From: Sulfurimonas xiamenensis
GTDB lineage: Bacteria; Campylobacterota; Campylobacteria; Campylobacterales; Sulfurimonadaceae
Length of the DNA: 64,000 nt
Reading direction: 5' to 3'
NCBI RefSeq assembly: GCF_009258045.1
Contig: NZ_CP041166.1
Coordinates: forward strand, 1,798,001-1,862,000
The translations under genes were made by a program, and so were the position numbers. Positions within the stretch are counted from its first letter, which is position 1; every line of letters begins with the position of its first letter. Of this stretch, positions 4,175 through 12,025 are shown piece after piece. The notes under the pieces are model-generated. The model saw only the letters and a list, made by a program, of their open reading frames with translations, was not told where the DNA came from and did no database searches.

Positions 4175-4590
4175 ATTTTTCCTTTATGCTTTTTAAGTAA
4201 ATTTCACAAAAATTAATTTTATTTATAAAAATTAATTAGTGAATAATATAACACCAAACTTAAAATAAAATTTAAAAAGAGTTACATAATATTTTTTAGC
4301 ATTTTTATTCTAATTGTCTGTTTTCTTATCTTATATCTTAAATATTATATAAGTAAAGTCTTGTCTATCATCTTTATAATAGAAACAATATAAAACAAAA
4401 ATTTGTTTTTAACATTATTACAATTCTATTATCTACTGCTCTTTTTTCTTTATCAGTGCGCTATATTCTATAATTATACATAAGGCATTTTTTATGTAAA
4501 AATACTTTCAAAAGTTTCAATATGCTTATATGACTCATTTAGTTACATAAATAATAAAACAAATCTTAATTTTGTAATCTAATAAAAAAA

Positions 4591-4639
4591 TTGATTTGTA
4601 TCAAGAAACATTTGGTAAAAAAAGATTAAACTACTCCTA
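4591..4639 (+). promoter_or_regulatory. nirS promoter with perfect FNR-type box (4591-4604)
   Basis: TTGATTTGTATCAA at 4591-4604 fits TTGAT-N4-ATCAA exactly. A -10-like TAAACT at 4627-4632 predicts a start near 4639, which puts the box centre at about -41.5, the class II activation position. A strong ribosome site AAAGGAG (4648-4654) precedes the nirS ATG at 4662. The rest of the 4175-4590 gap is AT-rich with no further gene or clear motif. Confidence 0.8.
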
Positions 4640-4661
4640 ATTCTGAAAAAGGAGAAATAAA

Positions 4662-6302
4662 ATGAGATTAAACAAGTTAGTTATGTCGGTTGCTGCAATG
4701 GCAATCGTTGGTTCAGGATTAGTTGCTGATACATCAAGTATGGATGTAGAAGCTGTTTTTGAAAAAGAGTGCCAGGGATGTCATGGTCCTAATCACGAAG
4801 GCGGTGTTGGTTCAGATCTTCGTCCAAGTGTGATTGGCAAAAAAAATGCTTATGAACTTGCAGAAACTATATTAAATGGTAAAGCAGGTACAGCTATGCC
4901 TCAGTTTAAAGATAAATTTAGCAAGGCTGATGCTGATAAAATGGTTGATTATCTACAACACTTTAAAGGCAGAGTAATCAAACAACTTACACTTGATGCT
5001 GTAAAAGATGGCTGGAAGCCTCTAAATGACAGAATGGAATTTTTCAAAAAATATCCAAAAGCAGTAGATGTTAAGAAAAATACGGATATCTGTTTCGTAA
5101 CAGAGCGTGATGCTGAACGCGTAGTGTTTGTTGATGGAACAAGCGGTAAAATTTTATCTAGACATCCAGCAGGTTTTGCTGTCCATGTAACAGTTACAAA
5201 CAAGCGTCAGCCTCGTTATGCTTACTCAATCTCTCGCTCAGGTTTAGTAACAATGTACGACCTTAACACTCCGGGCCAACAAAAAATTGCTGAGTGTCAG
5301 GTTGGTTCTGAATCTCGTGGTCTTGCAGTTTCTCCGGATGGTAAATACTTAATGGCTGGTAACTACACTCCGGGCGGTGCTGTGCTTATGGATGCTATGA
5401 CGCTTGAGCCGTTAAAAGTTTATCCTACTTCAAGTGTTATTCAACCAAATGGAAATATTGATTCATCTCGTGTAGCTGGTATTTTCGATACTCCATACGG
5501 TCCTTATTTTGCATTTGCACTTAAAGATGGTGGACATGTTTATATCGTAGACTACTCTAAGCCTGATTTCCCAATCGTTGGAGATATTCCAAATATCGGT
5601 GATATTCTTCATGATGGTTTCTTAAATGAAGGTAAAGAGATTGGTCGTTACTTATTTATCGCTTCTCAAGGAAGTGATGTTGTCGGTGTAGTTGATTTTA
5701 AAACTAAATCATTAGTAACAAAAATCTATACAGGTCCTGCATCTAAGCCACACCCAGGTCAAGGTTCTTCTTGGTATAATGAAACTCTAGGACAGCAGCT
5801 CGGTGCAACTGTTAATATGAATCTTGGTCAAGTAACTATCTGGGATGATCATTTTGATGTAATTCGTCAAATTCCAACTGGCGGCGGTGGATTATTTATA
5901 GGTACATCAGAGCATACACCATTTTTATGGGCAGATAATGTTTTAGGTGGTGATGATGTTTGGAATCAAGTTCATTTGATCAACAAACAAACTCTTGAAT
6001 TAGACAGAATACTTACAGTTGGTACAACTGAAGGTACTGTTATGGATCCTGTAACTCACAAAATTTTATACAAATGGAAAGTTCCAACTGTTAAAGATGA
6101 AAATGGTAAAGTAATAGTTCCAAGAATTTTACATGCTGAACCGGCTAATCACGGTCACTGGACTATGATTTCTGAGTGGAATGCAGGTCGTATCGGTATC
6201 TATGAAGCAAAAACAGGTAAATTTGTTAAATATATCAATGGCTTAACAACTCCTACTTTTACATACTCTATCGAGCATAGACAAACTATTCCTGGAGCAT
6301 AA
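4662..6302 (+). CDS. nirS: Cytochrome cd1 nitrite reductase NirS
   Basis: This periplasmic enzyme reduces nitrite to nitric oxide in denitrification. The 546-residue precursor has a signal peptide ending near VGSGLVA-D, then a cytochrome c domain with C37-Q-G-C40-H41 and a likely axial Met79. From about residue 120 the eight-bladed d1-heme propeller follows. By alignment from memory with Paracoccus NirS, the proximal d1 histidine is in GFAVHVTVTN, and the two distal histidines are in ILHDGF and SKPHPGQGSSW. Presence of the c domain and both distal histidines separates it from NirF and supports NirS over NirN. A strong rho-independent terminator follows at 6352, so nirS may be largely monocistronic, with nirCJFE behind it. 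Confidence 0.96.
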   Translation: MRLNKLVMSVAAMAIVGSGLVADTSSMDVEAVFEKECQGCHGPNHEGGVGSDLRPSVIGKKNAYELAETILNGKAGTAMPQFKDKFSKADADKMVDYLQHFKGRVIKQLTLDAVKDGWKPLNDRMEFFKKYPKAVDVKKNTDICFVTERDAERVVFVDGTSGKILSRHPAGFAVHVTVTNKRQPRYAYSISRSGLVTMYDLNTPGQQKIAECQVGSESRGLAVSPDGKYLMAGNYTPGGAVLMDAMTLEPLKVYPTSSVIQPNGNIDSSRVAGIFDTPYGPYFAFALKDGGHVYIVDYSKPDFPIVGDIPNIGDILHDGFLNEGKEIGRYLFIASQGSDVVGVVDFKTKSLVTKIYTGPASKPHPGQGSSWYNETLGQQLGATVNMNLGQVTIWDDHFDVIRQIPTGGGGLFIGTSEHTPFLWADNVLGGDDVWNQVHLINKQTLELDRILTVGTTEGTVMDPVTHKILYKWKVPTVKDENGKVIVPRILHAEPANHGHWTMISEWNAGRIGIYEAKTGKFVKYINGLTTPTFTYSIEHRQTIPGA

Positions 6303-6524: not shown

Positions 6525-6830
6525 ATGAAAAAAATTATAGCAGTAATATTGAGTTTAATTTCATTTTTATCTGCAAATGAGTTGGACGGAAAGAAAGTTT
6601 TTGAAACTTATTGCTGGGGTTGTCATCACCAGAGTGCTGAAGCTTTCGGTCCATCTTTTAGTGAAATTGCTTCCAAGCGAACATATGAAGAGATACAAGC
6701 TTATATTTTAGACCCTGAATCAATGTATAAGGCTTTTGGGTACAAACGAACAGTTATGACAAAAATTAAACTAACCGACAAAGAGAGAGAGGCTATTGCA
6801 AAATATGTACTCTTATATAAAGGCAAATAA
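6525..6830 (+). CDS. nirC: Small monoheme cytochrome c, NirC type
   Basis: A 101-residue exported cytochrome. The signal peptide ends near FLSA-N, and the heme site is C30-W-G-C33-H34. A methionine in YKRTVMTKIKL is a candidate sixth ligand. Members named NirC pass electrons to NirS or assist in heme d1 maturation in the periplasm. It starts the operon that continues through nirJ, nirF and nirE, overlapping nirJ by one base (TAATG). Small size and position support NirC over a general cytochrome c553. Confidence 0.85.
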   Translation: MKKIIAVILSLISFLSANELDGKKVFETYCWGCHHQSAEAFGPSFSEIASKRTYEEIQAYILDPESMYKAFGYKRTVMTKIKLTDKEREAIAKYVLLYKGK

Positions 6831-7951
6831 TGTTTAGATTATCCAATTTAATATCTTCAGTTGTTGAAGACAAGCCAGAAAGAGTTCTTGGGGGTTCAAT
6901 AGCAATATGGAATTTTACAAATAGATGCAACCTCTCATGTCTTCACTGCTACTCTAAATCAACATTAGATGAAGTTGATACTTTAACAACTGAGCAGATT
7001 AAAAAAACAATACTAGAGATGAAAGAAAACGGCGTAAAATTTATCATCTTCTCTGGCGGCGAGCCTCTTACAAGAAAAGATCTTTTTGAAATTGCCGATT
7101 TTTGCAAAGAGAATGGAATCATCACCTATCTCTCCAGCAACGGCCTCTATTTTACAACAGGAAATATACAGCGCATAGTGGACACATTTACATATGTCGG
7201 TGTAAGCATAGATGGAGATGAACCTACTCATGACTATTTCCGCGGACTAAAAGGTGCATTTACCCAAACGCTTAAAGCTGTTCGTCTTGCTATAGAAACC
7301 GGAGCTAAAATCGGGATCCGTTTTACTCTTACAAAAGATACGGTAAATTCCTTAGAGTACATTTTTGACTTAGCTGAAAAAGAGAATATTCCAAAAATCT
7401 ATATTTCTCATCTTGTCTACTCCGGTCGTGGTTTAGACAACTTAAAAATGGACCTCTCAAAAGAGCAGAGAAGAAAATCTGTAGAGTTTATCCTTGACAA
7501 AGCGTTTGAATATCATAAAACAGGCAGAGACATTGAGATAGTAACCGGAAATATGGAACAAGATGCAGTTCTGTTTTTAGATAGATTTGCTCTTGAATAT
7601 CCTGAACTAAAAGATACAATGAGAGAGCGTTTGGTTAAGTGGGGCGGAAACAGTGCCGGACGAAAACTTTTAAATATAAACAGCGAAGGTGATGTAAGAC
7701 CGGATCCATTCTTCCCATTAACCATTGGAAATATAATAGAACAAAACTTCGGTGATATTTGGAAAGGCGGTGAGCTTCTAGACCAACTGCGCATTCATCC
7801 AAGAACACAAATCAGCGGTATATGTTCAAACTGCCAACAGATAGATATATGCAACGGCGGCTCAAGAGCAAGAGCTTATGCTATTACAGGTGATTTATGG
7901 AGTGAAGATCCATCATGTTATTTAACTGAACAAGAGAGAAGGAAGCATTAA
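6830..7951 (+). CDS. nirJ: Heme d1 biosynthesis radical SAM protein NirJ
   Basis: The 373-residue enzyme carries the radical SAM signature C33-N-L-S-C37-L-H-C40 and the GGEP motif (FSGGEPLTRKDL). Near the C-terminus, CSNCQQIDICNGG and a later Cys form a SPASM-like auxiliary cluster site. NirJ replaces the two propionate side chains by oxo groups on the way from didecarboxysiroheme to heme d1. Both ends overlap their neighbours by one base (TAATG), so translation is tightly coupled with nirC and nirF. Related AhbC/AhbD enzymes are the main alternative, but the nir operon makes NirJ the better call. Confidence 0.93.
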   Translation: MFRLSNLISSVVEDKPERVLGGSIAIWNFTNRCNLSCLHCYSKSTLDEVDTLTTEQIKKTILEMKENGVKFIIFSGGEPLTRKDLFEIADFCKENGIITYLSSNGLYFTTGNIQRIVDTFTYVGVSIDGDEPTHDYFRGLKGAFTQTLKAVRLAIETGAKIGIRFTLTKDTVNSLEYIFDLAEKENIPKIYISHLVYSGRGLDNLKMDLSKEQRRKSVEFILDKAFEYHKTGRDIEIVTGNMEQDAVLFLDRFALEYPELKDTMRERLVKWGGNSAGRKLLNINSEGDVRPDPFFPLTIGNIIEQNFGDIWKGGELLDQLRIHPRTQISGICSNCQQIDICNGGSRARAYAITGDLWSEDPSCYLTEQERRKH

Positions 7952-9087
7952 TGAGAACAAAAAAAATTTTACTGGGAGCCTCATTAATTGCGGCCATTTT
8001 CACCACTTTAAGTGCAAAAGGAGTAAATCCTGTACTTGCAATGTTAAATACGCAAGAGAAATTTTTTGTCGTTGAGAGAGAAGACGAATCCTTAGCAATA
8101 ATAGAGCAAGGCATGACAAAAGGCTATTTAACTGGAGTTCATAATATGAACCACGGTGTTGTGAAATTTTATGACAAAGACGGCTATGTTATTTCACGCG
8201 ACGGGTATATAGTAAAATTTGACCCTGAAGCAGAAAAAATACTCAAAGAGCGCAAAACAAGTGACAGCGCTATTGGCTTTACGGTAGCGAAAAATTACAT
8301 AGCTGTTGCAAACTATGCTAAAAAAAGTGTTGATATTTTAGATAGAGATTTGAATCCTATTCAGTCTTTTGAAACAGGTTCAAAAAATGTAGGTATAAAA
8401 AAATATAAAAATTATCTTGTTTTCTCCCAAATGAATAATGACAAAATTACTGTACTAAAAGATAAAAATGAGGGCAAAGATCTACCGCATTTTGAAATAT
8501 ACAAAGAGTTTGAAAATGTTGGAGTTATGCCTTTTGATGCAATGATAAAAAACAACAACTTTATCACAGGATTTTTCAAAAGTGATTTTTTTGGTGTTGT
8601 AGATTTGGATACTATGAAGTACTCAAAAATCAAAATTTTACTTGGAGACAGAAAACCAGTTTTAAAAGTTCCTCATTTTGGATTTTGGAGCATAAGTGAT
8701 GAGAATGTCTTTATTCCTGCAGTTGGAGATAACAAAGTTTTAGTTTACACTTCTGATTTTAAATTTGTAAAAAATATCGAGACAGAAGGTCTTCCGGTCT
8801 TTACTGCACTTAGCCCCGACAAAAAATATATGGCTGTTACATTTAGTGGTGAAAAATTTCCTGTAATTCAAATTATTGATACAAAAACTCTTGAAATTAT
8901 TAAAAGATTTGAATTTGATGGAAAAGTTTTACATATTAGATGGTCGGGTAACAGACCAAATCTTTATGTATCCGTAAACGATACAAATAAAATAGCGGTT
9001 ATAAATACAAAAGATTGGTATCTTTCCCGCGAAATATTTAATGTTAAAAAACCATCAGGTATATTTATTTACGAAGAGGCAAAATAA
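7951..9087 (+). CDS. nirF: Heme d1 biosynthesis protein NirF
   Basis: The 378-residue product has a signal peptide (basic start, then a hydrophobic run ending near TLSA) and a propeller fold related to the d1 domain of NirS. It lacks any CxxCH motif, which argues for NirF rather than NirN. HNMNHGVVKF, near residue 65, resembles the region holding the histidine essential in Paracoccus NirF. NirF acts late in heme d1 synthesis, in the periplasm in most species. It is coupled by TAATG to nirJ and by a one-base overlap to the downstream methyltransferase gene. Confidence 0.9.
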   Translation: MRTKKILLGASLIAAIFTTLSAKGVNPVLAMLNTQEKFFVVEREDESLAIIEQGMTKGYLTGVHNMNHGVVKFYDKDGYVISRDGYIVKFDPEAEKILKERKTSDSAIGFTVAKNYIAVANYAKKSVDILDRDLNPIQSFETGSKNVGIKKYKNYLVFSQMNNDKITVLKDKNEGKDLPHFEIYKEFENVGVMPFDAMIKNNNFITGFFKSDFFGVVDLDTMKYSKIKILLGDRKPVLKVPHFGFWSISDENVFIPAVGDNKVLVYTSDFKFVKNIETEGLPVFTALSPDKKYMAVTFSGEKFPVIQIIDTKTLEIIKRFEFDGKVLHIRWSGNRPNLYVSVNDTNKIAVINTKDWYLSREIFNVKKPSGIFIYEEAK

Positions 9088-9827
9088 TGGGCAAAGTTTA
9101 TTTAACAGGCGCCGGTCCGGGTGATATAGAACTTTTAACCTTAAAAGCATTTAGAGTTATAAAAGAGGCTGATGTTATAATATATGACCGCTTGGCCAAT
9201 CCGGATATCCTAAAAGAGGCAAAAAATGGCTGCCATTTTGTTTATGTAGGAAAAGAAGATGGCAAACATATTGTTCCTCAAGATGATATTAATGAAATAA
9301 TTTATCAAAATTCATTAAAACATGAAAATGTAGTTCGCTTAAAAGGAGGGGATCCTTTTGTATTTGGACGCGGCGGAGAAGAGGCGCTTTATCTTCAAGA
9401 GCGCGGAATTAAATATGACATAATCCCCGGAATAACATCTGCCATAAGCGCTCCTGCATATGCCGGAATACCTGTGACACATAGGGGTGTTGCAGTTAGT
9501 TTTAGAGTTGTAACAGGACATGAATCTCCAAATAAAAAAGAGTCCCAAATTCCTTGGAAAAATTTCAAAACTGATGATACTATTGTTTTTTTAATGGGTC
9601 TGCACAACCTTCCGGAAATATCTAAAAAGCTTATAGAGGTTGGCAAACCAAATGATTATCCATGTGCTGTTATATCAAAAGGAACAACAAAAGAGCAAAT
9701 TGTAGTTGTAGGAACACTTGAAAATATAGTTGAAAAAACAAATGATATTCCTACTCCTGCACTTATAGTTGTCGGCAAAGTAGTACAATTAAGAGAACAG
9801 TTAAAATGGTTTGGAGAAAATGTCTAA
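9087..9827 (+). CDS. nirE: Uroporphyrinogen-III C-methyltransferase (NirE/CobA type)
   Basis: The 246-residue protein uses S-adenosylmethionine to methylate uroporphyrinogen III twice, giving precorrin-2. It has the SUMT signatures VYLTGAGPGDIELLTLKA at the start, YDRL, and VRLKGGDPFVFGRGGEEA near residue 85, plus the conserved PGITSAISAPAYAGIPVTHRG region. Its product feeds the precorrin-2 dehydrogenase encoded at 852. The name nirE is given for its place in the nir operon; it could equally be called cobA and may also serve siroheme and cobalamin. It overlaps the following sensor kinase gene by 8 bases. Confidence 0.93.
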   Translation: MGKVYLTGAGPGDIELLTLKAFRVIKEADVIIYDRLANPDILKEAKNGCHFVYVGKEDGKHIVPQDDINEIIYQNSLKHENVVRLKGGDPFVFGRGGEEALYLQERGIKYDIIPGITSAISAPAYAGIPVTHRGVAVSFRVVTGHESPNKKESQIPWKNFKTDDTIVFLMGLHNLPEISKKLIEVGKPNDYPCAVISKGTTKEQIVVVGTLENIVEKTNDIPTPALIVVGKVVQLREQLKWFGENV

Positions 9828-11349
9828 ACACCTTAATACTTCAGAAGCAGTGCTAATTGCACCAAATATCTACTGGGTTGGTATGCACTTAAAAGATGAT
9901 CCTTTTCAGTGCCATCCCTACCTTATAAAAAATGCAAACGAATCGATTCTTATTGATCCAGGTTCCATGCTTGAGTTTGAAGAGACAATAAGAAAAGTAA
10001 AAAGCATTATTGATATTAATGCCGTCAAATATATTATACTGCATCATCAAGATCCAGACTTAGCAGCTGCAGTTCCGGAGATTGAAAAGCTTATCAACAG
10101 AGCAGATCTGCAGATAGTAACCCACTCTAGAATATCTCTTTTAATTAAACACTATCTAATAACATCAAGCTACTATAATATAGACAAAAACAACTATACT
10201 CTGCTAACTTCAAACGGTTTAAAACTAGATTTTTTGACAACACCATACTGTCACTCTCCCGGTGCATTTGTAACATACGAACCAGATTCAAAGGTTCTGT
10301 TTTCAGGTGATATTTTTGGAGGTCTTGAAGAGTCTTGGGATTTTTATGCAGATGAGACATATTTTGAAAAAGCAAAACTTTTTCATAAGGAGTATATGCC
10401 GAGTAAAGATATTTTTAATTATGCTCTTTCTAAAATAGAAAAACTTGATATCAATTTAATAGCACCTCAACATGGTTCTATGATAGAGAAAAAATATATC
10501 CCAAAATTGATTGAAGATATGAAAAATCTTGATTGTGGGTTATATATAGAAGAGAAGTATAATCAAGAATTAATAGACATTATAAAAGAGCTGCAAAAGA
10601 AAGAGCGCGCTTTAAAAGAGCGTAACTTACTTCTTTTTGAACAGTCAAAAAGAGCAGAAATCGGTGAAATGATTGGAAATATAGCACATCAATGGCGGCA
10701 GCCTTTAGCAATTATCAACACTTCATTAGCAATCTTAAAAGAAAAAAACAGAGCAGGATTGCTTAACGAAGATGAGATAGCTGATAAATTAGAAAAAATG
10801 GAAAAACGCGTTATATATATGTCTGAAACGATAGAAGATTTTATGACTTACTATACCCCAAACAAAGAGAAATCTTGGTTTAGCGTATGCGAAGCTGTAG
10901 AAAAAGCGCTTGACATTGTAAATATAAAATCTAATGAAAGAGGCGTTAAATTAAATCTTTTCATTAATAATGAATATAAAATTTATGGACTAATAAATGA
11001 GTTTATTCAAGTAATAGTCTCAATTTTATCCAATATAAATGATTTAATAACAATAAAAAATTTAAAAAATACAGATGTAAAAATCTCACTTTATAGAGAT
11101 TCTGACTATGCAACTCTTACAATAGAGGATAATTGTGGAGGGATTAATGAAAAAAATTTAAATAAAATATTTGATCCCTATTTTACTACAAAACATAAAT
11201 CAATGGGAACCGGTCTTGGTCTGCATATAGCAAAAATGATTATAGAAGAGAATATGAATGGCTCTTTAAATGCAAAAAACATATATAATATTAACAATGA
11301 AAAAATTGGAGCAAAATTTACCATAAAGATGAGAAATGAAAATCAATAA
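9820..11349 (+). CDS. Sensor histidine kinase with N-terminal diiron metallo-beta-lactamase (ODP-like) domain
   Basis: Residues 1 to about 235 form a flavodiiron-type metallo-beta-lactamase domain. All six expected metal ligands can be placed: H76, D78, D80 (HHQDPD), H145 (CHSPGAF), D164 (FSGDIF) and H218 (PQHGSM). Asp78 replaces the usual Glu. There is no flavodoxin domain. A coiled linker (about 245-280) leads to a kinase core with the phospho-accepting H290 (GNIAHQWRQPL), then DNCGGI, FDPYFTTK and GTGLGL ATP-site motifs. No membrane helix is seen, so it is cytoplasmic. The ATG at 9820 is preferred over TTG at 9811 because GGAG precedes it. Similar ODP domains bind oxygen in chemoreceptors; oxygen or nitric oxide sensing is an inference. 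It overlaps the regulator gene by 14 bases. Confidence 0.85.
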   Translation: MSKHLNTSEAVLIAPNIYWVGMHLKDDPFQCHPYLIKNANESILIDPGSMLEFEETIRKVKSIIDINAVKYIILHHQDPDLAAAVPEIEKLINRADLQIVTHSRISLLIKHYLITSSYYNIDKNNYTLLTSNGLKLDFLTTPYCHSPGAFVTYEPDSKVLFSGDIFGGLEESWDFYADETYFEKAKLFHKEYMPSKDIFNYALSKIEKLDINLIAPQHGSMIEKKYIPKLIEDMKNLDCGLYIEEKYNQELIDIIKELQKKERALKERNLLLFEQSKRAEIGEMIGNIAHQWRQPLAIINTSLAILKEKNRAGLLNEDEIADKLEKMEKRVIYMSETIEDFMTYYTPNKEKSWFSVCEAVEKALDIVNIKSNERGVKLNLFINNEYKIYGLINEFIQVIVSILSNINDLITIKNLKNTDVKISLYRDSDYATLTIEDNCGGINEKNLNKIFDPYFTTKHKSMGTGLGLHIAKMIIEENMNGSLNAKNIYNINNEKIGAKFTIKMRNENQ

Positions 11350-12025
11350 AATTAAAGATATATCTATTCTACTGGCTGAAGATGAAACAGAATTGCGTGA
11401 AACTCTATCTGAATATTTGCAGATATTTTTTAGCAGAGTTTATACGGCAGCATGTGGAAATGAAGCGTATGATATTTATAAACAAAAGAGACCAAATATT
11501 ATTTTAACAGATATCTATATGCCCAATCTTGATGGGCTTGATATGATTGCCAAAATAAGAAAGGATGATCAAGAGACCAAAATTATTGTAATAAGTGCTC
11601 ACTCTGAGCAGGAGAAACTTCTTAAAGCAATAAAACTTCATCTTGAAACATACCTTATCAAACCAATAAAAACGGATGTATTAAAGCAGGTACTCTTTGA
11701 CACAGTAGAATTAATCCGAAAAACTACAAATCGAACTTATATTAATGATACTACTTACTGGGATAATGACACAAATACACTTTGGACTGGCTCTAAAGAG
11801 ATTAAACTTAGAAAAATGGAAAATTTACTCTTAAAACTACTTTTTTCTCAGCCCAACCACTGCTTTTCTGCCGAAGAAATTTTTAAATTTCTTCACGAAG
11901 GAAAAGAGAAAAAAGAGTTTTCAATGCATGCCATAACATCACTTATGAAAAGAATTCGTACAAAACTTCCAGATAATACTATTCACAATATATATGGGTC
12001 TGGGTATAAAATAACTCCTATGTAG
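11336..12025 (+). CDS. OmpR-type response regulator paired with the diiron sensor kinase
   Basis: The 229-residue protein has an N-terminal receiver domain with acidic E15-D16, phospho-acceptor D59 (ILTDIYMP), the SAHSE Ser switch and the KP pair (LIKPIKT). From about residue 130 a winged-helix DNA-binding domain of the OmpR type follows and ends with IYGSGYKI. Overlap with the kinase gene makes the pair a dedicated two-component system. Being last in the nirCJFE operon, it most likely controls denitrification genes, though its binding sites are unknown. A short AT-rich hairpin follows near 12026-12041, between this gene and the convergent Sel1 gene. Confidence 0.9.
   Translation: MKINKIKDISILLAEDETELRETLSEYLQIFFSRVYTAACGNEAYDIYKQKRPNIILTDIYMPNLDGLDMIAKIRKDDQETKIIVISAHSEQEKLLKAIKLHLETYLIKPIKTDVLKQVLFDTVELIRKTTNRTYINDTTYWDNDTNTLWTGSKEIKLRKMENLLLKLLFSQPNHCFSAEEIFKFLHEGKEKKEFSMHAITSLMKRIRTKLPDNTIHNIYGSGYKITPM

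Follow-up and report, generated by a model that had tools for sequence, protein, structure and literature searches.

The window analysed here is a 64,000-nucleotide (nt) stretch of the genome of Sulfurimonas xiamenensis (contig NZ_CP041166.1, positions 1,798,001 to 1,862,000, forward strand), a sulfur-oxidising member of the Campylobacterota, a phylum that denitrifies in sulfidic and vent settings. Directly behind nirE, in the operon for the NirS-type cytochrome cd1, lies a gene for a sensor of the ODP family fused to a histidine kinase, followed by a gene for an OmpR-family response regulator. The two almost certainly form a sensor kinase and its partner regulator, as judged from their sequences, and this two-component system is probably co-transcribed with the nor-nir operon and involved in its regulation. 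Its most likely role would be that of a cytoplasmic sensor of O2, or less likely of nitric oxide (NO), that tunes denitrification. A first-pass annotation of the same letters had drawn both genes with coordinates that proved exact (Table 1) and had proposed an NO or O2 sensor for denitrification; of that proposal there remains a cytoplasmic kinase with a diiron-type sensor, accompanied by an OmpR regulator and kept in the operon, while the sensor domain as such is not specific for nitrogen oxides.

By sequence comparison and by a structural model, the sensor domain is assigned to the ODP family and not to the flavodiiron enzymes. Indeed, Pfam placed ODP (PF19583) at residues 29-219 (4.1e-62; 209.9 bits, the gathering score being 27.2), HisKA at 282-344 (7.5e-7) and HATPase_c at 395-505 (5.7e-16), and a phmmer search of solved structures returned the ODP entries 6qrq (1.2e-27) and 6qnm (6.3e-19), with flavodiiron proteins ranking below them. 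The AlphaFold2 model aligned across the whole domain to the T. maritima ODP 6qwo (Z 28.7, rmsd 2.8, 241 residues aligned), the T. denticola peroxy-diiron ODP 6r9n (Z 27.1) and flavodiiron cores (Z about 23-27), although a mean pLDDT of 73.6, falling below 50 in the linker and H-box region, counts against leaning on the model too heavily. The six metal ligands (H76, D78, D80, H145, D164 and H218) are those first assigned and are invariant both in 23 aligned ODP-kinases (the window protein and 22 others) and in a broader alignment of 45 rows (the window protein and 44 others). C31, C144 and C239 are equally invariant in the same alignments, and C239 sits in a CGLYI linker motif that is found too in GGDEF-type and SpoIIE-type ODP fusions. 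The ligand motif aligns by sequence with that of 6qrq and 6qnm, where Asp for Glu is the family rule, so that this residue, correctly noticed in the first-pass annotation, is no oddity and does not set the window protein apart from other ODPs.

HisKA and HATPase_c stand where a flavodoxin would be expected in a flavodiiron enzyme, and D78 occupies the second ligand position, at which flavodiiron enzymes presumably have Glu as a rule, together with a further His ligand at the position of L81 in the window ODP. Pfam gave no flavodoxin or PAS match in the kinase open reading frame (E 0.001), and the highest 19-residue Kyte-Doolittle mean of 1.5 indicates that the kinase has no membrane segment; the direct fusion free of flavodoxin, PAS and membrane parts thus stands as first described, with its family corrected from flavodiiron enzyme to ODP. 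A plain flavodiiron NO/O2 reductase domain was rejected (no flavodoxin, best score to ODP), as were the idea that the Asp substitution is novel (ODPs normally have it) and a loss of metal binding (all six ligands are kept). The intact set is informative since ODP-like proteins with lost ligands exist. In two of them, at L065:8347-9846 (GGDEF by Pfam) and L066:8995-10518 (L and G numbers denote loci and genomes of the survey), most ligands are replaced (QNYEPD, FNYFAG, PRYGS or PKYGS). A regular expression for the ligands failed in 4 of 80 loci (L177, L209, L210 and L214), with L210 an incomplete gene and L209 having all six when aligned.

A conserved CGLYI...Y...EL linker connects the ODP domain to the cytoplasmic HisKA kinase, and the pair has the parts of an orthodox two-component system: H290 and HATPase_c in the kinase, D59 and Trans_reg_C in the regulator (Response_reg plus Trans_reg_C by Pfam), and adjacent genes. 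The reading frame of the kinase begins with an ATG at 9820 (a TTG lies in frame at 9811) and shares its first 8 nt with the end of nirE, whose stop is at 9827; that of the regulator begins within the kinase gene.

The association with cd1-type denitrification extends well beyond the window. PF19583 was found above cut-off in 130 of 397 Campylobacterota genomes, many of the proteins being probably flavodiiron, to judge by their length (about 410-430 amino acids, aa). ODP-kinases, taken as a class of roughly 500 aa from which a 744-aa ODP-kinase in G360 and divergent proteins in G004, G036 and G040 were excluded, occur in 23 of the 397, and in 17 of these 23 the gene lies directly behind nirE, the placement first noted in the window. 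NirS, defined as a PF02239 match better than 1e-40 and tallied from lists compiled by hand, is present in 22 of the 23 genomes versus 54 of the 374 others (Fisher 2e-16, relatedness ignored). For comparison, the figures for NirS were 6 of 11 among genomes that have other ODP fusions (a class in which Pfam was run on one member, L040, with GGDEF, and two were cut by contig ends) and 5 of 25 among those that have stand-alone ODPs. Sulfurimonas genomes with NirS have the ODP-kinase in 15 of 22 cases, always within the operon.

In a scan of relatives' loci, of which 80 of 100 were kept, the ODP gene stood directly behind nirE in 31 of the 80; it included the kinase in all 31, and the regulator came next in 30, the remaining locus ending at a contig edge. 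With norB upstream in 25 of these 31, the neighbour surveys give the usual operon as norX-norC-norB-nirS-cyt c-nirJ-nirF-nirE-kinase-regulator, where norX designates a small protein that Pfam did not match. The operon of G357 (L078/L172) was counted as not nir-linked, the gene ending just before its kinase not being nirE. The survey of gene neighbours proposed in the first-pass annotation thus found homologues that are not confined to sites away from nitrogen-oxide genes. Furthermore, 37 genomes chosen from the 80 loci were searched for NirS, 25 of them with a stand-alone kinase-regulator operon or an ODP-winged-helix gene; NirS (better than 1e-40) was present in 19 of the 25, a NirF-size hit or fragment only in five, and none in one.

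The promoters offer a second line of evidence. Most nor promoters of kinase-bearing Sulfurimonas contain TGTTTC-N5-GTWACA, its first position being 60 nt, or in a few promoters 61 nt, above a Crp/Fnr-type site. The element can also be read as a tandem TGTTTCA-N3-TGTTACA-like or 10-bp direct repeat; OmpR-family sites typically have such a spacing. Scored with a leave-one-out matrix, 31 of the 33 distinct promoters that have the kinase, the window with its copy TGACTCATTTAGTTACA among them, did better than all of 100 shuffles (L077 and L164, the same genome, were counted once), a result tempered by the facts that the element was derived from the same promoters, that close relatives stay in the matrix and that relatives are not independent. 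Among promoters of the genus without the kinase, 1 of 7 beat all shuffles (L096; L094 beat 96 of 100), and none of six promoters of another family did; the difference between 31 of 33 and 1 of 7 gives a Fisher value of 5e-5, relatedness ignored. When L102 of G306 is counted, which was unscored for want of an anchor site, 2 of 8 kinase-less promoters carry the element. In particular, L151 has both kinase and element inside an otherwise kinase-less cluster (support 92/96), with the element missing from L090, L091 and L092 and weakly matched in L094. Taken from these patterns, the two-component system probably acts on the nor-nir promoter, and the element is favoured, by a smaller degree of confidence, as a candidate operator of its response regulator.

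Besides the dependence among promoters, several observations weigh against such control. L057 and L212 have the kinase but no element; G306 (L102) has a perfect element upstream of its nor-nir genes and no ODP match, and L096 has a weaker copy without an adjacent kinase; and the six other-family nor-nir promoters lack the element, five of them in genomes with a kinase-regulator operon. Across whole genomes, matches at one mismatch showed no excess over a reversed-pattern control in most of 19 genomes. Seven of the 22 NirS-bearing Sulfurimonas genomes are without the ODP-kinase (one, G360, has the longer ODP-kinase at another site), so that nir works without it, and L162 and L166, with an ODP-kinase whose regulator is not adjacent, have no cd1-type match.

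Two other explanations draw on these exceptions. TGTTTC-N5-GTWACA might belong to another regulator, such as a second Crp/Fnr-family protein, a proposal that deserves some credence and agrees with the reading of the element as an imperfect inverted repeat (TGTnnC-N5-GnnACA), with the perfect copy in G306 and with the four Crp-type helix-turn-helix proteins of the window genome (G000). It accounts less well for the way the element tracks an adjacent ODP-kinase throughout the genus, a correlation that includes at least one contrast within a cluster (L151). Alternatively, the pair might merely ride at the end of the nir operon, with its targets elsewhere (for example in general anaerobic metabolism) and nir outside its control; this seems unlikely. 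The seven genomes without the pair, the different location of the Sulfurovum pair and the promoter-element exceptions would fit such a passenger, but the NirS tree, on which kinase presence needs five changes, at least three of them forced, has the kinase behind nirE on several separate branches, the co-occurrence with NirS persists even when the genes are unlinked, and the sole perfect element of the genome is at the nor promoter in 9 of 14 kinase-bearing genomes searched (one of three in G200). Regulation of the nor-nir operon by the pair is the more probable reading. A large regulon for the element was rejected, since one-mismatch matches are no commoner than the reversed control in most of the 19 genomes, with G186 as the clear exception, and since the nor promoter has the only perfect match in those 9 of 14. 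In G186, the stretch G186:C3:168379-176218 contains dozens of identical motif-like 17-mers, spaced by about 65 nt or by multiples of it, which probably belong to a CRISPR array or to repeats of another kind.

The kinase-regulator pair is also found alone, not behind nirE, in Sulfurovum and related genomes. A Crp/Fnr-type site (TTGAY-N4-RTCA) lies at most 150 nt upstream in 15 of 25 such stand-alone operons, by a hand count in which L207 was dropped for short upstream DNA, the near-misses L168 and L196 were scored as misses and the last pattern position could be A, T or G; the control was 7 of 403 other open reading frames of 49 loci not behind nirE, none of them with the site at 44-52 nt (Fisher 3e-16). 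Mononucleotide shuffles yield such a site at 0.3% per locus. In 10 of the 15 operons the distance from the beginning of the site to the start codon is 48 or 49 nt, and TATACT often follows the site. The same type of site is present at the nor-nir promoters of both groups: TAAACT follows exactly 22 nt behind it in 27 of 34 kinase-bearing nor-nir promoters, window included, with close variants in the rest, and CATAAT takes its place in the other family. By analogy with the regulators of a relative (see below), an Nss-like protein is a likely type of binder at the TTGAY-N4-RTCAA site.

Of the seven control sites, five are found in L189, L198 and L208, where the flanking genes code for a siroheme decarboxylase (NirDL-like) and for CysG-N, as identified by family searches on L189; the window has a CysG-N gene too, at 852-1421, in a tetrapyrrole pathway shared with NirE. 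The kinase-regulator operon stands beside the anaerobic ribonucleotide reductase genes nrdD-nrdG in L189 and L201, and in L189 it adjoins, on its other side, the same TrpD-like gene as the window nir operon.

Three Sulfurovum loci have a single 353-aa gene that joins ODP to Trans_reg_C (L195:9001-10062, L211:9001-10062 and L206:2866-3927; Pfam on L195), with kinase and receiver domains missing. Its winged helix matches that of the window regulator at 42% identity over 92 aa in L195 and, by tblastn, at 43% in L206 and L211, and the fusion genes share the Crp/Fnr-type upstream site. Moreover, they take the place held by the kinase-regulator operon in L174 and L060, as seen from the neighbours on both sides in L211 and from the upstream neighbours in L195 and L206, whose sequences end just past the fusion gene. 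As three separate assemblies are involved, an artefact is unlikely, and the fusion ties ODP input to this DNA-binding output independently of gene order alone. The protein is a candidate one-component diiron transcription factor on the strength of its domains. More tentatively, with the chances just short of even, the ODP-kinase of Campylobacterota may be a dedicated gas gate on heme-cd1 denitrification that was shortened by deletion to the ODP-winged-helix form in some Sulfurovum.

As for the signal, O2 has about an even chance of being the ligand of the ODP domain, NO is less probable, and Fe2+/redox or another ligand less so again. The known ODPs point to O2, as does the pairing of the same subtype with GGDEF or SpoIIE outputs outside this phylum; the genomic context points to NO. 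These outputs, in some cases in genomes without NirS, indicate that the ODP domain as such is not specific for nitrogen oxides. Were NO the signal, a diferrous ODP would bind NO made by NirS and feed back on nir/nor as a cytoplasmic NO thermostat, a rather unlikely scheme that nevertheless draws on the reduction of NO by flavodiiron relatives (flavorubredoxin and Moorella nitric oxide reductase structures were among the matches), on an operon that makes NO and mostly has norB upstream, and on the NirS found in 19 of the 25 genomes with unlinked systems. It is opposed by the description of characterised ODPs as O2/Fe2+ sensors in the accessible parts of the literature, by SpoIIE-type ODPs (Pfam on L202) in four spirochaete genomes without PF02239 above cut-off, although a fifth, L213, has NirS, and by the O2-related setting of the operons beside nrdD-nrdG. 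That the domain senses iron supply or redox state and no dissolved gas is improbable; an ODP is called an Fe[II] and oxygen sensor in the title of a cited work, and NirS and heme d1 synthesis both need iron. O2 remains the preferred ligand.

ODPs of the same subtype were also seen outside the phylum. Leptospiraceae/Spirochaetaceae metagenome-assembled genomes (L202-L205, L213 and L215) have ODPs 62-71% identical to that of the window, an identity across phyla that suggests horizontal transfer; in L202 the ODP is followed by SpoIIE and TPR-like regions (Pfam), and L203 and L213 look similar by eye. Gammaproteobacterial/Pseudomonadota metagenome-assembled genomes (L169, L173, L181 and L187) have ODPs with PAS and GGDEF outputs (L169 by Pfam; L181 and L187 by eye), and NirS is present in the genomes of L169, L173 and L187.

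A mechanism can be proposed from these elements. A Crp/Fnr-family protein, perhaps Nss-like, would express the operon, so that the sensor is made along with the enzymes that it monitors. Inside the reduced cell, Fe2+ would be held by the ODP domain, which would bind O2 or NO, and ligand binding may then move the linker and change kinase activity. The phosphorylated regulator would bind the tandem element 60 nt above the Crp/Fnr site and tune transcription of nir, in relatives also of nor, its own operon included.

Among known systems, flavodiiron proteins (FprA, flavorubredoxin) share the metallo-beta-lactamase (MBL)-fold diiron core with the window ODP and carry a flavodoxin for catalysis. 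NreBC, a system of staphylococci with a NarL-type regulator, uses an iron-sulfur sensor with no diiron MBL fold, whereas the window sensor is an ODP. As an O2-sensing [4Fe-4S] kinase with a regulator of nitrate/nitrite reduction, NreBC is nonetheless the closest functional analogue, going by the accessible part of PMC8139620. Closer in phylum and process are the Nss regulators of Wolinella succinogenes, which belong to the Crp/Fnr family and respond to nitrate, NO or N2O according to the available sections of PMC6682613 and PMC8139620; they differ in being one-component proteins without an ODP. The chemotaxis ODPs (T. denticola TDE2498; T. maritima; 6r9n, 6qnm, 6qrq, 6qwo; PF19583) share family, fold, Asp ligand motif and signalling role with the window domain, as far as the accessible part of PMC7666581 describes them, but they are separate proteins at the MCP/CheA array, in contrast to an ODP fused to an orthodox kinase with an OmpR factor in a denitrification operon.

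PMC7319448 credits Muok et al. 2019 with ODPs that share a protein or an operon with signal-transduction domains, so that fusions of ODP to signalling domains are already known, and the window kinase shares their plug-in sensor principle. The passages of PMC7319448 consulted make no mention of a denitrification linkage, a shared Crp/Fnr-type promoter, a candidate operator or a one-component ODP-winged-helix fusion. The nirE linkage, the Crp/Fnr-type site at stand-alone operons, the candidate operator and the ODP-winged-helix fusion are new; searches of open-access full text, a scope that leaves out most subscription journals, turned up no previous account of an ODP belonging to a denitrification operon or respiratory gene set. 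In the available sections of a 2019 review (PMC6682613), no FNR, ArcA or NarP orthologues were known in Campylobacterota and there was little on regulation in free-living members. If the proposal is true, O2 or NO probably tunes denitrification through a diiron sensor in a phylum for which few oxygen sensors are known. With a specific sensor, partner, promoter and candidate operator named, what switches denitrification on and off becomes directly testable, and the natural ODP-winged-helix fusion is small enough to serve for studies of possible control of DNA binding by a diiron site.

Table 1. Features of the nir operon and its promoter, in window coordinates
Feature	Coordinates	Strand	Remarks
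ODP-histidine kinase, 509 aa	9820..11349	+	ODP diiron-type MBL-fold sensor + coiled linker + HisKA + HATPase_c
ODP sensor domain, residues 1-239	9820..10536	+	ligands H76, D78, D80, H145, D164, H218
HisKA dimerisation/phospho-acceptor domain, residues 282-344	10663..10851	+	H290 in NIAHQWRQPL
HATPase_c catalytic domain, residues 395-505	11002..11334	+	Pfam
OmpR-family response regulator, 229 aa	11336..12025	+	phospho-acceptor D59; Trans_reg_C winged helix residues 154-225
nirE/cobA-type uroporphyrinogen-III C-methyltransferase	9087..9827	+	overlaps kinase start
NirF-like, PF02239, heme d1 biosynthesis	7951..9087	+	
NirJ-like radical SAM	6830..7951	+	TIGR04051 5.9e-112, under the curated cut-off of the model
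Small cytochrome c	6525..6830	+	
NirS-type cytochrome cd1	4662..6302	+	PF02239 2.5e-61 + cytochrome c
Crp/Fnr-type palindrome TTGATTTGTATCAA	4591..4604	+	22 nt before TAAACT (-10-like, 4627-4632); class II-like spacing
Candidate response-regulator site TGACTCATTTAGTTACA (TGTTTC-N5-GTWACA in relatives)	4531..4547	+	starts 60 nt above Crp/Fnr site

The cd1 protein of the window belongs to a divergent clade, its PF02239 score being 208 bits versus about 400 for some other NirS of the phylum. The window is also without the norX-norC-norB genes that head the operon in most relatives, and the same kind of promoter stands directly before nirS (4175-4661; L105); L163 likewise has no norB before nirS. 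The single NorB-like protein found in the window genome (39%) is encoded at another site, beside a NorC-like cytochrome and a divergent Rrf2-family regulator.

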